DNA of 64,000 bases. Source: Lacinutrix sp. MedPE-SW. GTDB taxonomy: Bacteria > Bacteroidota > Bacteroidia > Flavobacteriales > Flavobacteriaceae. Shown piece after piece: positions 16,474 through 22,254 of this stretch; position 1 is the stretch's first letter, and the number at the start of each line of letters is the position of its first letter. The stretch spans positions 62,001 through 126,000 of the forward strand of contig NZ_MPCX01000003.1 of the NCBI RefSeq assembly GCF_001874145.1. Reading direction: 5' to 3'. The position numbers were made by a program, and so were the translations under genes. Below the pieces are notes generated by a model. The model worked only from the letters and a program-made list of their open reading frames with translations. It ran no database searches and was not told the origin of the DNA.

Positions 16474-16824
16474 TTATTTAATTTTCTCTAACTTAATGAT
16501 TGTTAACACTTCAACCTCATCATCAAATCCATCTTCATCTGTTTCTGTTACTGTTGTAGATGTGTAAGTTACTTTAAAATTTTCTCCTATTAATTCATCA
16601 GACTCTAAATCGAAACTTGCTAACACATCGTCTTTTATTTCTTGAAAAATAATAGTTCGCTCATCTCCTTCACTATTTGTATGTATAAAATTATAACCAT
16701 AATCTTCTACACCATCATACACTGCTTTAATTGTTAAAGTATCTTGTGTAATACTTTTAAAACTAGATAGAGTTAATAATAAAACACCTACCAATACTAA
16801 CGTTATTTTGTTTTTTGCTTTCAT
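16474..16824 (-). CDS. Small exported hypothetical protein
   Basis: This 116-residue protein has a signal peptide (MKAKNKITLVLVGVLLLTLSSFKS) and a small beta-rich acidic domain. I recognise no family. The mature part contains alternating hydrophobic strands (TLTIKAVYDGVED, VEVLTIIKLEKI) and an acid patch (ETDEDGFDDEVE), which may bind divalent metal or simply aid solubility. It is 61 bases downstream of the RMD1-family gene on the same strand and could be read through from the polyamine operon, but a clear gap and its own terminator make this uncertain. Confidence 0.6.
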   Translation of the reverse strand: MKAKNKITLVLVGVLLLTLSSFKSITQDTLTIKAVYDGVEDYGYNFIHTNSEGDERTIIFQEIKDDVLASFDLESDELIGENFKVTYTSTTVTETDEDGFDDEVEVLTIIKLEKIK

Positions 16825-16885: not shown

Positions 16886-17665
16886 CTATTTAATTATTTT
16901 TAGGAGCAACATATCAAACACTTCAATTACAATTAAGATTATAATAATCCACTCTAATCTACTGCTTTCTTTATGGTCCATTATGTCTTTAAAAAGCTCT
17001 AAGTTTTCTTTAATAATTTCTATGCGCTCCTGAATTAAGCGGTATCTATCTTTTAAATCGAATGTTTTTTTAAGTTCGATATTTAGCACATTTAACTCTT
17101 CTACTTCCCATGTAATTTCTGGAGAGTCGAATATGTAAAGGTTCTCTGAGATTCTATTTTTAATGTTAAGAGTCTTGCCTATAAATCGCTTAAGTTTATT
17201 TCCAGAAATATCTAACTTTCCTTTTTCTTCTAGGTATAATGTATGCTTGTTGGTTTCTACTAAAAGTGTTTCGGTAATTTCAGAATAACGGTTTAATGCT
17301 ACAGATTGAGACGTGTTTAGCATTACTAAACGAATCATTTCTTCATTTAGCGCTGGTAACTCTACGTGACTAAACTGTACTTTTAATGTTTCTGGTTTTA
17401 TAATTACTTCTGTTTCTTCAGAAAGTTTTTGAGAAAAATAATTTGTACAAAAAGGTTTAATTTTTGTTAAGCAGCTTTTTATTATTGTTTCTTCAACATT
17501 AAAAAAACTTACAATTCCATATTGAAATATATAGATAAAACTATCTTGAGATGTTTTATAATATAGCTCGTCACTATCTTGAAAAAGCAACTGCCATGAC
17601 AGTTGCTTTTGGCTTTCTTTTATATTGATAGTACTTGCAACCTGGTAGGCTACGACGTTATACAT
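16886..17665 (-). CDS. RMD1/DUF155 family protein
   Basis: This 259-residue protein has an N-terminal alpha/beta region (about 1-110), a helical middle, and a single C-terminal membrane helix (LEWIIIILIVIEVFDMLLL, about 235-254). This is the layout of the RMD1/sif2 (DUF155) family, whose yeast member is mitochondrial and whose bacterial role is not established. Typical features are YIFQYGIVSFF near residue 45 and the long helical segment KDRYRLIQERIEIIKENLELF before the anchor. The start shares one base with the stop of the acidic protein gene (TAATG), so the two are translationally coupled within the polyamine operon. Confidence 0.75.
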   Translation of the reverse strand: MYNVVAYQVASTINIKESQKQLSWQLLFQDSDELYYKTSQDSFIYIFQYGIVSFFNVEETIIKSCLTKIKPFCTNYFSQKLSEETEVIIKPETLKVQFSHVELPALNEEMIRLVMLNTSQSVALNRYSEITETLLVETNKHTLYLEEKGKLDISGNKLKRFIGKTLNIKNRISENLYIFDSPEITWEVEELNVLNIELKKTFDLKDRYRLIQERIEIIKENLELFKDIMDHKESSRLEWIIIILIVIEVFDMLLLKIIK

Positions 17666-17982
17666 TAGAAATCATTACTATTTTCGTCCATTTCTGGATC
17701 TTGTATCGCTTCTGGATCATTATCATCAAAATCTTCATAATCGTCTTCATCATAATTTTCCATTGTAGCCTCTAATTTGGTACTTACTTTTACTAAATAC
17801 TTAGTGTCTTGGGTAATTAGTTCTACAGCTTCTACTAGCTCGTTTTTTGCATTTTTAAAAGCAACTATATGTCTATCGTCATAACCGTCTGGAAATTTCT
17901 CTACCAACATGGCTAAAATTTCTGGTGTTAATTTTTTAAAATCTACAATAACGCGTTTTAAATGTTCGTGTCTGTTTTTCAT
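17665..17982 (-). CDS. Small acidic hypothetical protein of the polyamine operon
   Basis: This 105-residue cytoplasmic protein is of unknown family. The first 75 residues form a mixed alpha/beta domain (VIVDFKKLTPEILAMLVEKF ending STKLEATM). The last 30 are extremely acidic (NYDEDDYEDFDDNDPEAI onward). Such a tail could bind cationic polyamines or a basic partner, but that is a guess. It lies 2 bases after the deoxyhypusine-synthase-like gene and overlaps the RMD1-family start by one base, which places it firmly in that operon. Confidence 0.7.
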   Translation of the reverse strand: MKNRHEHLKRVIVDFKKLTPEILAMLVEKFPDGYDDRHIVAFKNAKNELVEAVELITQDTKYLVKVSTKLEATMENYDEDDYEDFDDNDPEAIQDPEMDENSNDF

Positions 17983-17984
17983 AA

Positions 17985-18959
17985 TTATTGGTTTAATAAG
18001 TATGCAAAAATTAACGGTGCTACAATAGTAGCATCACTTTCTATTATAAATTTTGGTGTGTCTATATCTAGTTTTCCCCAAGTAATTTTCTCATTTGGTA
18101 CTGCACCAGAGTATGAGCCATAACTTGTTGTAGAATCACTAATTTGACAGAAATAACTCCAAAATGGTGTTTCTGGTCTTTCCATGTCTTGATATAACAT
18201 TGGTACTACGCAAATAGGAAAATCTCCTGCAATTCCGCCTCCAATTTGAAAAAAGCCTATTCCATTTTCTGAATTATCTGTATACCAATCTGCTAAAAAA
18301 GTCATGTACTCAATACCAGATTTCATTGTACTTGCTTTAAGCTCGCCTTTAAGCACGTAGCTTGCAAAAATGTTTCCCATTGTACTGTCTTCCCAACCTG
18401 GGCAAACTATTGGCAGGTTTTTTTGGGCCGCTGCATACATCCAAGAATCTTTTAAATCTATTTCGTAATACTGCTCTAAAACTCCAGATAATAACATTTT
18501 ATACATATACTCATGCGGTAAATAACGTTCTCCATTAGCTTCGGCATCTTTCCAGATTTTTACAATATGTTGTTGTAGCCTCCTAAATGCTTCTTCTTCT
18601 GGAATACAAGTATCTGTTACACGATTTAAACCTTTTTCAAGTAAATCCCACTCATCTTGTGGTGTTAAATCGCGATAATTAGGTACACGTTTGTAATGAG
18701 AATGTGCTACTAAATTCATAATATCTTCCTCAAGGTTTGCACCTGTACAAGAGATTATTTGAACTTTGTCTTGTCTTATCATTTCGGCAAAACTTTTACC
18801 AAGTTCTGCCGTACTCATTGCACCTGCTAATGATACTAACATTTTAGCTCCACTTTCTAATTGTGCTTCGTAACCTTTTGCTGCATCAACTAATGCTGCT
18901 GCATTAAAATGCAAATAGTGTTTTTCTATAAATTGAGAAATTGGTCCTTTAGTATTCAT
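17985..18959 (-). CDS. Deoxyhypusine-synthase-like protein, canonical Lys absent
   Basis: This 324-residue NAD-binding protein belongs to the deoxyhypusine synthase superfamily. Conserved features are the early SCTGANLEEDI (residues 70-80) and the late SGAVPNEKITWGKLD (284-298), matching SGARPDEAVSWGK in the eukaryotic enzyme. The segment that carries the catalytic lysine in eukaryotes (GGGVVKHH) reads GGGIAGDFP here (240-248), with glycine at the lysine position. Bacteria lack eIF5A, so a polyamine-forming reaction on putrescine or agmatine is more likely than hypusination. The ATG at 18959 is preferred over an upstream ATG at 18980, because the protein then starts MNTKGPISQF as relatives do and overlaps the agmatinase gene by 11 bases. 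Confidence 0.85.
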   Translation of the reverse strand: MNTKGPISQFIEKHYLHFNAAALVDAAKGYEAQLESGAKMLVSLAGAMSTAELGKSFAEMIRQDKVQIISCTGANLEEDIMNLVAHSHYKRVPNYRDLTPQDEWDLLEKGLNRVTDTCIPEEEAFRRLQQHIVKIWKDAEANGERYLPHEYMYKMLLSGVLEQYYEIDLKDSWMYAAAQKNLPIVCPGWEDSTMGNIFASYVLKGELKASTMKSGIEYMTFLADWYTDNSENGIGFFQIGGGIAGDFPICVVPMLYQDMERPETPFWSYFCQISDSTTSYGSYSGAVPNEKITWGKLDIDTPKFIIESDATIVAPLIFAYLLNQ

Positions 18960-19887
18960 CGTCTTCGTTGTATTTAGCACTATTATTTTTTTGTTTTACA
19001 TTCTCGTAAGCATTGTCGTAATCTGCTTCGGCATCATCATTTTCAAATTTATAGCTTAGCATTTTGTAGTATAATTTTGCTGCTAAAAAATCTGAAGATT
19101 TATCAATTTTATTTGGGCATAACTCGACAATATCAAAACCTACTACATTTTTCTCTTCGAATACTTGCTTTAAAAATTCTAATGTTTCATACCATAATAA
19201 ACCGCCAGGTTCTGGTGTTCCTGTACTTGGCATTATTGAAGGATCAAATGCGTCTAAATCTATAGTGATAAATACATTCTCTGTCATTTGATCTACTGCA
19301 CTATCCATCCAAGTATCATCTATAGCCATTTCATGAGCAAAGTACGTTTTCTCTTTGTCCATTACTGTAGTTTCAATAACATCCATAGAACGAATACCTA
19401 CTTGAATTAAGTTAGTCGTTTGGCTAGCTTCGTAAACAGCACAAGCGTGGTTACATGTTGAGCCTTCGTATTCTTTACGCAAATCTGCATGTGCATCAAG
19501 CTGTAATACAGTTAAGCTTGGATACATTTCATTAAAGGCACGAATAGTACCAATAGAGATTGAATGTTCTCCTCCAAATATGGTAACAAACTTATTTTTT
19601 TTAATGTATTTTTTAGTTTCTTTATGCACAGCATCTACCATTGCTTCTGGCGAGCTGTTTTCAGTCACAGCTTCTGCTAGATAAATACCTTGTTTGTAAA
19701 CTTCGGTTTCTGTTTCAATGTCGTATAGCTCCATATTTTCTGAAGCATTTAAAAATGCATCTGGACCTTTATCTGCGCCTTTTTGCCAAGTACTTGTACC
19801 ATCGTAAGGCACAGGAATTAAAACAATTTTTGATGTTTCTAGCTTAGAGAACTCTTCTCCAATACCAGCATAAGTTTTAGTTTGCAT
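18949..19887 (-). CDS. speB: Agmatinase (ureohydrolase family)
   Basis: This 312-residue enzyme hydrolyses agmatine to putrescine and urea (the family also includes arginases and other ureohydrolases). The binuclear manganese ligands are in FGGEHSISIG (His near 115), LDAHADLR (about 138-144) and TIDLDAFDPSIMPSTGTPEPGG (about 217-238). The PSTGTPEPGG ending fits agmatinase-like members. The last 25 residues are an acidic tail (ENDDAEADYDNAYEN). It overlaps the decarboxylase gene before it and the deoxyhypusine-synthase-like gene after it by 11 bases each. Together with the decarboxylase it makes putrescine from arginine. Confidence 0.88.
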   Translation of the reverse strand: MQTKTYAGIGEEFSKLETSKIVLIPVPYDGTSTWQKGADKGPDAFLNASENMELYDIETETEVYKQGIYLAEAVTENSSPEAMVDAVHKETKKYIKKNKFVTIFGGEHSISIGTIRAFNEMYPSLTVLQLDAHADLRKEYEGSTCNHACAVYEASQTTNLIQVGIRSMDVIETTVMDKEKTYFAHEMAIDDTWMDSAVDQMTENVFITIDLDAFDPSIMPSTGTPEPGGLLWYETLEFLKQVFEEKNVVGFDIVELCPNKIDKSSDFLAAKLYYKMLSYKFENDDAEADYDNAYENVKQKNNSAKYNEDDEY

Positions 19888-21274
19888 AACCTAAAATTTT
19901 AAGTAAGTCTTCACTTTTTTGTTGTTCGCTAAATAGTTTTGTTGTAATGTTTCCGTCTTTATCTTTATTTATTAAAATGTGTTTTGGCGACGGTATTAAG
20001 CAGTGTTGCAAACCTCCAAAACCGCCAATAGTTTCTTGGTAAGCACCTGTATTAAAAAACCCTATATATAAAGGTTTGTCTTTATTATATTTTGGTAAAT
20101 AAATGGCATTCATGTGTTGTTCACTATTGTAATAATCATCACTATCGCAAGTTAAACCTCCAAGTAAAACACGCTCATAACTAGACTCCCATCTATTTAT
20201 TGCTAGCATTACAAAACGCTTATTTATAGCCCATGTATCTGGAAGAGTTGTTATAAACGATGAATTTATCATGTTCCATTTCTCACGATCGTTTTGTTGC
20301 TTTTGGTATAACACCTCGTAAATTGCGCCACCACTTTCTCCTACTGTAAAACTTCCAAATTCTGTAAATATATTTGGTACATCTACTTCTTCTTCCTCAC
20401 ATGTAAGTTTAATTTGGTTTACAATCTCGTCTACCATATACTCATAGTCAAAGTCGAATGCTAATGAGTTTTTAATAGGAAATCCACCACCAATATTTAA
20501 GCTATTTAAGCTTGGACATATTTTTTTTAAGCTTGTATATACTTTTAAACATTTTTGTAATTCATTCCAGTAATAAGCATTATCACGAATACCTGTATTT
20601 ATAAAAAAGTGTAACATTTTAAGGTTAACCTTTTCATTGTTTTGAATTTTATTTTTGTAAAAAGGAACAATGTTTTTGTAGCCAATTCCTAAACGTGATG
20701 TATAAAACTCGAACTTAGGTTCTTCTTCTGATGCTATACGAATACCAATGTTGTAATTACCTTTTATTTCTGCAGACAACAAATCTATTTCTTCGTAATT
20801 ATCGATAATTGGAATACAGTTTTTTTGTCCGTTATTAATTAACCTTGCAATGTTTGTTACATACTGTGCACGTTTAAAACCGTTACTTATAACAAATGTT
20901 TCGTTTGTTATTTTGCCTTCTGCTTTTAGGTTCTCTACAATATCAATATCGAAAGCAGATGATGTTTCTATATGAATATTATTAGTTAATGCCTCGTTTA
21001 AAACATGCTTAAAGTGTGAGCTTTTTGTACAATAGCAATAATTGTAAGTTCCTTTATAATCATGTTTTTCTATAGCATTTGCAAACCATTGTTTTGCTCG
21101 CTGTATATTATTTGATATTTGTGGCAAATAGGTAAACTTTAAAGGCGCACCATATTCTTCTACCAATTTCATAAGATCAATATCATGAAACTGAAGTTGA
21201 TTTTTTTCAAGTTTGAATTCTTCTTGAGGAAAATCAAAAGTTTGATTGATTAAATCAATATATTTTGTATTCAT
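19877..21274 (-). CDS. speA: Arginine decarboxylase, short alanine-racemase-fold type
   Basis: This 465-residue PLP enzyme has an alanine-racemase-like TIM barrel (about 40-310) followed by a beta domain. The PLP lysine is K84 in CYCTKSSHF. The phosphate-binding glycines are in LNIGGGFP (about 260), and FTEFGSFTVGESG and LLGGLTCDSDD follow, with the cysteine of the second active-site half. It is much shorter than E. coli SpeA (about 650), lacking the large insert, as is common for Bacteroidota. It makes agmatine from arginine and heads the operon 21274-16886. A 425-base upstream region holds a possible structured RNA. Confidence 0.87.
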   Translation of the reverse strand: MNTKYIDLINQTFDFPQEEFKLEKNQLQFHDIDLMKLVEEYGAPLKFTYLPQISNNIQRAKQWFANAIEKHDYKGTYNYCYCTKSSHFKHVLNEALTNNIHIETSSAFDIDIVENLKAEGKITNETFVISNGFKRAQYVTNIARLINNGQKNCIPIIDNYEEIDLLSAEIKGNYNIGIRIASEEEPKFEFYTSRLGIGYKNIVPFYKNKIQNNEKVNLKMLHFFINTGIRDNAYYWNELQKCLKVYTSLKKICPSLNSLNIGGGFPIKNSLAFDFDYEYMVDEIVNQIKLTCEEEEVDVPNIFTEFGSFTVGESGGAIYEVLYQKQQNDREKWNMINSSFITTLPDTWAINKRFVMLAINRWESSYERVLLGGLTCDSDDYYNSEQHMNAIYLPKYNKDKPLYIGFFNTGAYQETIGGFGGLQHCLIPSPKHILINKDKDGNITTKLFSEQQKSEDLLKILGYAN

Positions 21275-21344
21275 TATAATTTTTAAAAAACGTTAAGATT
21301 TAGTTTAAAAAACAACATTTAATGCTGTTGAAAATAAATTAAAA

Positions 21345-21500
21345 CGTTCCTCTCAAACTTGTATAATTAAGTCTGTTGTAGGTACAAAGCCATAGTAGTG
21401 TTGGCTTGCAACTATTGAAGTAAAAGCGGAAGTTAGCTCTAAAATTCGGTTACTTAAACGATAAGCTGCTTTTGAGAATGACTTCCTATTGCTCAAAAAC
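21345..21500. ncRNA. Candidate structured RNA upstream of the decarboxylase gene, family unassigned
   Basis: The block stands out from its AT-rich surroundings by higher GC and by nested complementary segments. TCTCAAA near 21351-21357 pairs with TTTGAGA near 21471-21477. GGAAGT (21429-21434) pairs with ACTTCC (21481-21486). A small hairpin GTTG-GCTTG-CAAC is near 21400. AAAGC and AGCT near 21423-21440 can pair with AGCT and GCTTT near 21464-21473. No long open frame covers it. It could be an independent small RNA (6S-like in length and long-hairpin form) or, on the minus strand, a 5' leader of the polyamine operon. The strand is not settled. Confidence 0.4.
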
Positions 21501-21653
21501 CCGAACATATAAACACGGTTCAATTTGTTCAGCTATATTATATACTTGTTAAAGTAATAATATTATAACGATGCAAATGAAATACTTTTTTTTGAATTTC
21601 AAATTAATTTTATATTATTTTTTAATTTATTTCTTAATTACTTGATTTACTGA

Positions 21654-21683
21654 TTGTTTAAGCCGTAATAATTTGTAGATTTA
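21654..21683 (+). promoter_or_regulatory. Probable promoter of the ASCH lipoprotein gene
   Basis: TTG (21654-21656), a 19-base spacer and TAGATTTA (21676-21683) match the Bacteroidota TTG-N19-TAnnTTTG pattern with one mismatch. The ATG follows 16 bases later, giving a very short leader. Confidence 0.45.
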
Positions 21684-21699
21684 AGGTTAAAACAACACT

Positions 21700-22254
21700 A
21701 TGAAGCCATATTATTTTATCATTTTTTTTATTTTTTTTCAATGTAAAAGCGACATTGAAAATAATTCTATACAAGATAATACTGTTGAAAATTCGGTGAA
21801 TACAATGTGGAATAATTTTACTAAAGCAAATCCTGAATATAAAACTGAAGCTGTTCCAGATTCTTGGTTTTTTCATGACAATAAAAGTGATGCAAATAGG
21901 TTAGCACAGCTTACTTTAAATGGAAAAAAAAGAGCCAGTTCTGGTTTATATTTATGGTACAAAGAGGCAAATGCAAGTTTACCTAAGGTTGGAACAAAAC
22001 AAATAGTTACCAATTATAACGGGCGTGCCATTGCTATAATTGAAACTAAAAAAGTAGATACTATACCATTTAGTAATATCACTAAAGCTTATGCTGCGTT
22101 AGATATGGGAACTACTATAGAGCCACTTAAAAAGTGGAAAAATGCACATTGGGCATTTTTTACAAATGCACTAAAAGAAAGTGGCAAGCACCCTACACAA
22201 AATATGCTAGTGGTTTGTGAGGTTTTTGAAACTATTTGGCCAATAAAAAAGTAA
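21700..22254 (+). CDS. ASCH-domain lipoprotein
   Basis: This 184-residue protein has a short lipoprotein signal (MKPYYFIIFFIFFQC, Cys15) and then an ASCH domain from about residue 45 to the end. The ASCH pattern is seen in LTLNGKKRASSGLYLWY, the central NGRAIAIIETKKVDTIPF, and the closing NMLVVCEVFETIWP. ASCH proteins have a PUA-like fold, and most are thought to bind RNA in the cytoplasm, so a lipid-anchored envelope copy is odd. If translation started downstream it would be cytoplasmic, but no good internal ATG precedes the domain except in NTMWNNF. Convergent with the pseudouridine synthase gene. Confidence 0.75.
   Translation: MKPYYFIIFFIFFQCKSDIENNSIQDNTVENSVNTMWNNFTKANPEYKTEAVPDSWFFHDNKSDANRLAQLTLNGKKRASSGLYLWYKEANASLPKVGTKQIVTNYNGRAIAIIETKKVDTIPFSNITKAYAALDMGTTIEPLKKWKNAHWAFFTNALKESGKHPTQNMLVVCEVFETIWPIKK

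Follow-up and report, generated by a model that had tools for sequence, protein, structure and literature searches.

We analyzed a stretch of 64,000 nucleotides (the window) from Lacinutrix sp. MedPE-SW, a member of the Flavobacteriaceae, that carries an operon joining two putrescine-synthesis genes to a gene of the deoxyhypusine synthase (DHS) family. This operon likely makes homospermidine from arginine, with the DHS-family enzyme joining two putrescines, although we infer the substrates, the product and the chemistry. On its sequence, the enzyme is best read as a homospermidine synthase (HSS) that uses nicotinamide adenine dinucleotide (NAD) and a lysine imine, i.e., as a Bacteroidota branch of the known SpeY kind. 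The genes and sites concerned are as follows.

19877-21274, minus strand: speA-like pyridoxal phosphate-dependent decarboxylase, 465 residues (PF02784, E 4e-15; NCBIfam SpeA models)
18949-19887, minus strand: speB, agmatinase, 312 residues (TIGR01230, 225 bits against a cut-off of 174; PF00491)
17985-18959, minus strand: speY-like DHS-family gene, 324 residues from its ATG (PF01916, E 7e-43)
18072-18074, minus strand: codon AAA of K296, within TWGK, the equivalent of human DHS K329
18216-18242, minus strand: codons of GGGIAGDFP, residues 240-248, where human DHS has GGGVVKH

A preliminary description of this locus, made from the sequence alone, had proposed that arginine-to-putrescine synthesis is directly coupled to a DHS-fold enzyme through overlaps of 11 bases. 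The overlapping genes bear this out: speA and speB share positions 19877-19887, speB and the speY-like gene share 18949-18959, and all three belong to the families claimed for them. The mechanical open reading frame of the DHS-family gene starts farther upstream, at a GTG (18980). The two NCBIfam SpeA models match the decarboxylase at E 3e-48 and 1e-45, both below the model cut-offs, and its best solved relatives are the arginine decarboxylases 3n2o, 3nzq and 3nzp; it is probably an arginine decarboxylase, a short relative of the ca. 630-residue SpeA family. The best solved relative of the agmatinase is the agmatine ureohydrolase 3pzl. Among the matches listed, the named organism with the most similar DHS-like protein is Lacinutrix himadriensis (96% identity). 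We examined the layout in the best 80 of 592 stretches encoding a relative (82-96% identical to the window protein). Upstream of speY on the same strand, 56 of the 80 loci have both speA, at no more than 2.5 kb, and speB, at no more than 1 kb; 22 have speA alone and two have neither gene. Most of the 22 loci with speA and no speB match (L010, L013, L016 and 19 others) come from Flavobacterium (18 of 22), family and genus names in our samples being those of named relatives. As to the conversion of agmatine to putrescine in such clusters, the genomes tested still hold some arginase-family gene (19 of 19).

The same description held that the catalytic lysine is missing from the enzyme, which would have to rely on a different nucleophile or catalyze a different reaction, since the eukaryotic GGGVVKHH reads GGGIAGDFP (residues 240-248) and the conserved HSY reads ASY (residues 199-201). 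Both motifs are indeed there, and the first is nearly fixed, with GGGIAGDFP in 80 of 81 loci and GGGISGDFP in the remaining one. What failed was the choice of GGGVVKHH as the catalytic site. Human DHS forms its imine on Lys329 (PMC7226451), the lysine of the C-terminal SWGK. In the human chain 1rlz, the matched peptide, which starts at 297, places 329 at this lysine, and in Trichomonas this very residue distinguishes structure 8qzw from 8qzx (WGK versus WGA). The TWGK of the window enzyme falls on SWGK whether it is aligned by profile to solved DHS chains or together with a second bacterial branch of DHS-family proteins. K296 is invariant: all 98 members of the window's branch have it, as do the 36 rows of a mixed alignment (A2), without exception. 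These members come from 141 loci, of which one gave no hit (L137) and five were omitted as fragments or broken copies (L118, L135, L136, L139 and L141), so that the window's branch has 98 and the other branch 37. Hence, the catalytic lysine is present at the very active-site position on which the claim of its absence depended, a placement of K296 at human K329 that comes from sequence-profile alignment and not from superposition, and no new nucleophile is needed. The earlier finding is therefore a motif error on a real operon. Conservation is also high at E290, W294 and D309, each present in at least 97% of these 98 members and in all 26 rows of alignment A1. We also considered, and rejected, another lysine as a substitute: besides K296, only K291 is found in 98 of 98, with K65 in 97 of 98. 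A lysine at this position is also kept in the DHS, HSS and SpeY-type sequences, one of them cyanobacterial, that are aligned in PMC10981699.

Homospermidine had been named as one possible product, and we judge it the likely one. In Anabaena, arginine is converted through agmatine and putrescine to homospermidine by SpeA, SpeB and the DHS homologue SpeY (PMC10385936; for SpeY, also PMC9992855 and PMC10407285), and in other phyla speY is clustered with speB and decarboxylases (PMC10385936, PMC9992855, PMC10407285). The window likewise has putrescine-synthesis genes beside its speY-like gene. A Flavobacterium strain contains 27.3 µmol of homospermidine per g versus 0.7 of putrescine and 0.2 of spermidine, sym-homospermidine is dominant in two Flavobacterium strains (PMC8570120), and homospermidine is said to be the major polyamine in all members of the Flavobacteriaceae (PMC3072086). 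Given the polyamines of the family and the known SpeY route, the simplest reading is that the window enzyme is the homospermidine synthase of this group. SpeA would decarboxylate arginine to agmatine, and SpeB would hydrolyze agmatine to putrescine. By analogy with DHS, the third enzyme would oxidize putrescine with NAD+, hold the aminobutyl group as an imine on K296 and pass it to a second putrescine, reduction by NADH giving sym-homospermidine. Our literature searches, which could not reach most subscription papers, found no assay of a Bacteroidota enzyme.

The genome as a whole (3.04 Mb in 22 contigs, completeness given as 99.99%) is consistent with this reading. It holds a single PF01916 gene, and searches for SpeE, SpeD and NspC gave no match at E 0.01, each being positive in some of 14 control genomes. 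NspC is the last enzyme of the alternative spermidine route. The preliminary description was also right, as far as this genome goes, that there is no eIF5A to be modified, since PF01287 had no match at E 0.01 (four of the 14 control genomes were positive). A saccharopine-dehydrogenase-type HSS was considered as another source of homospermidine and rejected, as none of the three PF03435 matches looks like one. The first is a relative of saccharopine dehydrogenase over its whole length (E 1e-68 to 2axq, with no HSS chain at E 0.001), the second is glutamyl-tRNA reductase, and the third lies below the cut-off, inside what appears by eye to be an acyl-CoA dehydrogenase gene. Across a sample of the phylum, PF01916 was matched in 302 of 395 genomes. 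All the matches in the window's class score at about 1e-37 to 1e-45, a range that is also found elsewhere in the phylum, alongside a second one of 1e-67 to 1e-104 and a few fragments weaker than either. Sequences from the two ranges form two branches that are 23-26% identical. Of the 98 genomes in this sample that belong to the window's class, 84 have a DHS-family gene and 14 have none, by a manual count from the search listings. In the phylum as a whole, NspC was found in 15 of the 395 genomes, 14 of them without PF01916. One genome of the window's family (G154) has, besides the usual copy, a second DHS-family copy (L140) that is 68% identical to that of the window.

Membership of the DHS superfamily is clear, with PF01916 at 147 bits against a cut-off of 27 and a predicted DHS fold. 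The AlphaFold model built from alignment A2 (predicted local distance difference test, 91.7; predicted template modeling [TM] score, 0.90) matches human DHS over its length, with TM scores of 0.77-0.78 for the best chains and a Foldseek E of 1e-15. The Protein Data Bank matches listed as best are DHS structures from human, Brugia, Pyrococcus and Trichomonas and one of archaeal type (8put), with query TM 0.73-0.79 and 16-20% identity. The likeness to human DHS extends to E323, W327 and K329, which correspond to E290, W294 and K296, at a structural identity of 16-18%. For the rest of the pocket we take the human residues to be K287, H288, D243 and D316, numbers counted back from 297; G245 sits at K287, which is not the imine-forming lysine. 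Several points weigh against a homospermidine synthase. In our alignment, the pocket differs from that of human DHS at all four of these positions (K287 to G245, H288 to D246, D243 to N196 and D316 to Y283), so the histidine of a true DHS is replaced by Asp246. Nine sequences of the second branch keep the GGGxxK lysine (as GGGxPK) but carry Asn where human DHS has this His. His288 has been described as a proton acceptor/donor in the human enzyme (PMC7226451). The homospermidine model NF001980/PRK00770 scores 109-110 bits, far below its cut-off of 450, and the NCBIfam model of deoxyhypusine synthase scores about the same (111-112 bits). Identity to 10 rows of the other bacterial branch is only 23-26%. 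As to genome content, the pattern in the class speaks for the homospermidine reading, NspC being found in 0 of the 84 genomes with a DHS-family gene versus 11 of the 14 without (Fisher p 3e-12), but this test makes no correction for kinship, those 11 genomes belong to four families, and 7 of the 84 were read as sequence, the others being placed by score. Moreover, in one genome outside the class (G125), NspC occurs together with a DHS gene from the other score range. Anabaena SpeY shares with the window enzyme the DHS family, the three-step arginine pathway and the kept lysine. It differs in that the window enzyme is far below the homospermidine cut-off, has a glycine for the GGGxxK lysine and belongs to a Bacteroidota host, the Anabaena sequence itself not being in the alignment. 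Altogether, we think that this is probably a divergent homospermidine-forming branch of a known kind.

The order of the steps could be different. CdmS of Thermus (caldomycin or 1,9-bis(guanidino)-5-azanonane synthase) is also a bacterial DHS homologue with the K329-equivalent lysine and on a route to homospermidine, but it uses agmatine (PMC10981699). An enzyme of this type would couple two agmatines into a bis-guanidino compound that agmatinase trims to homospermidine. The gene content of the operon is compatible with either order, and the 22 of 80 loci with speA upstream of speY and no speB match would suit agmatine as the substrate. However, the NCBIfam model of the CdmS-type enzyme scores lower than the homospermidine model (92 versus 109 bits), and small amounts of putrescine do occur in Flavobacterium (PMC8570120). 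The arginase-family gene found in all 19 genomes also speaks for putrescine, its best match being weak (E 1e-22 to 1e-28) in 7 of 11 genomes of genus g2. The positions of D243 and D316 are Phe and Leu in CdmS (PMC10981699) versus Asn and Tyr in the window. We thus regard agmatine-first coupling as unlikely, though worth keeping in mind. That the DHS-like protein modifies some other protein, as the family does in eukaryotes and archaea by moving aminobutyl groups onto a protein lysine, is very improbable: the genome has no eIF5A match, the gene overlaps those for putrescine synthesis, and free homospermidine is plentiful in the Flavobacteriaceae (PMC8570120, PMC3072086). An enzyme without the catalytic lysine, using another nucleophile or reaction, finds its argument in the near-fixed GGGIAGDFP, which has no lysine where eukaryotic DHS has GGGVVKH, but is scarcely credible, being refuted at the sequence level by the imine lysine of SWGK (K329; PMC7226451) and its counterpart in TWGK.

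Upstream of speA lies a leader that, on covariation and reading frame, looks both structured and translated. It comprises two overlapping features.

21426-21537, minus strand: structured leader RNA with a pseudoknot, upstream of speA (covariation)
21353-21523, minus strand: leader open frame of 56 codons with a TTG start, overlapping the structured RNA and open across the aligned relatives

A conserved element was found within the 425 bases upstream of speA, and an iterated search recovered it in 39 of 76 speA leaders (two of the original 78 were omitted, L023 with 72 bases and L052 with a misplaced start). These 39 plus the window align almost without gaps (alignment A4, 40 sequences), and on this alignment we drew by eye a structure of five helices, one of them a pseudoknot in which the hairpin-loop bases GGAAGU pair with ACUUCC farther downstream. 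Over the 40 sequences, 86.7% of the cells are paired and two-sided changes are found in 20 of the 30 pairs, none of 500 shuffles being as high in any of five measures. When the partners are slid by one base, pairing falls from 87% to 51-53%. A further 21 sequences that had no part in defining the structure have 77.7% of their cells paired, with two-sided changes in 25 of 30 pairs and 0 of 500 shuffles as high in every measure; the shuffle tests do not correct for kinship. Since the model that found these 21 already included four of the five helices, only the pseudoknot count is free of that bias: here 78.6% is paired, with two-sided changes in two of six pairs. RNAalifold by itself predicted the pseudoknot helix alone. 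A slippery site before the pseudoknot, noticed in some relatives, was dropped after reading the alignment by eye because the window does not have it. No intrinsic terminator was found at 21200-21700, and sigma-70-like sites there are at chance level. With Rfam 15, only a tRNA reached the gathering score in the window and the leader matches no family; at E up to 5, the search of 21275-21699 gave SNORD45 and mir-1814, both below their cut-offs. The element is apparently undescribed, judging from Rfam and from literature searches that included the accessible parts of PMC2864571 and PMC9723704 and could not cover most subscription papers.

The open frame is conserved too. The start stands at the same column in 39 of the 40 sequences (TTG in 20, ATG in 17 and GTG in two), and the aligned stretch has no in-frame stop in any of them. 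When the columns are shuffled, 13.5 sequences on average acquire a stop, and at least six do in every shuffle. The other two frames have stops in 40 of 40 and 32 of 40. The leader frames end at 51-61 codons, mostly 55-57, with TGA in 35 of 40. The three codon positions differ little in column variability (0.76, 0.79 and 0.87 bits). An element that is open-framed and structured at once suggests control through translation of the leader peptide, by analogy with orf34-speF of Salmonella, where a small open reading frame and RNA structure also lie upstream of a decarboxylase gene for polyamine synthesis (PMC6386406). The window leader differs in preceding speA, in belonging to another phylum and in its 56 codons and pseudoknot, and the two are likened by description, not by sequence.

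With a covariance model, 147 of the 299 family genomes searched proved to carry the element, and three of these have it twice. In a sample of the class (295 genomes), we found only the window's own and one marginal match (E 0.0098); eight other genomes of the same family (three genera) in that sample gave no match. Both searches used stricter filters, which lose weak matches, and scored 12 candidates per genome. Among the 44 sources searched, the leaders of Flavobacterium and Tenacibaculum gave nothing better than E 0.7. Genomic context was examined in 50 regions from the 147 genomes, 30 taken by best score and 20 picked by hand from the weakest hits and the second copies. In all 30 best-scoring loci, speA lies 141-220 bases downstream of the element; it is downstream on the same strand in 18 of the 20 hand-picked regions as well, and the other two had been picked as second copies. 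The second copies (L025, L051, L181, L182 and L183), in five of five cases seen, are upstream of a gene for a small, secreted-looking protein homologous to that of 16474-16824, which in the window directly follows the operon; the homologue in L025 was judged by eye. Three of these five loci are from Kordia or Kordia-like genomes.

The operon is probably under the control of the leader at 21353-21537, which may be a new regulator of polyamine synthesis. On balance, we lean towards a fuller picture, in which the peptide gene of ca. 56 codons and the pseudoknotted RNA share bases, translation and folding compete, arginine, agmatine or a polyamine is sensed, and the second small secreted protein (homologue of 16474-16824) is governed too. 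The leader might instead be merely a small protein gene, its base-pair pattern a by-product of coding. The frame open in 40 of 40 sequences, the NTG start in 39 and the single helix returned by RNAalifold agree with that, but coding would hardly produce two-sided changes in 20 of 30 pairs (25 of 30 in the sequences not used to define the structure), the fall from 87% to 51-53% on a slide of one base or the near-equal variability at the three codon positions. We consider this explanation rather doubtful.

Downstream of the speY-like gene, three more genes follow on the same strand.

17665-17982, minus strand: gene of 105 residues, family not assigned, starting 2 bases past speY
16886-17665, minus strand: DUF155 (RMND1/Sif2-Sif3) protein, 259 residues (PF02582, E 2e-29)
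16474-16824, minus strand: gene of 116 residues, 61 bases past the DUF155 gene, with a signal-peptide-like start (by eye)

The first two overlap by 1 base and fall within the span of the preliminary description (16886-21274), where they were left unnamed. The 105-residue protein is acidic-tailed, has no Pfam or NCBIfam match at E 0.001, and has a homologue within 150 nucleotides past speY in 63 of the 80 loci. A DUF155 homologue is present in 18 of the 80 loci, and in three Tenacibaculum loci and one Polaribacter locus (L028, L031, L046 and L049) this gene lies between speB and speY.

The correction of the catalytic lysine removes a false lead, and the pocket changes around the kept lysine become a natural experiment in the specificity of the DHS family. 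That homospermidine is the main polyamine of the Flavobacteriaceae has long been known as a chemotaxonomic trait, and the Bacteroidota branch of the enzyme supplies a candidate gene for it. For the class, this branch suggests a simple rule, NspC for spermidine or a DHS-family enzyme for homospermidine. Should the leader prove regulatory, it would add a new means of controlling polyamine synthesis, seen so far in one bacterial family.

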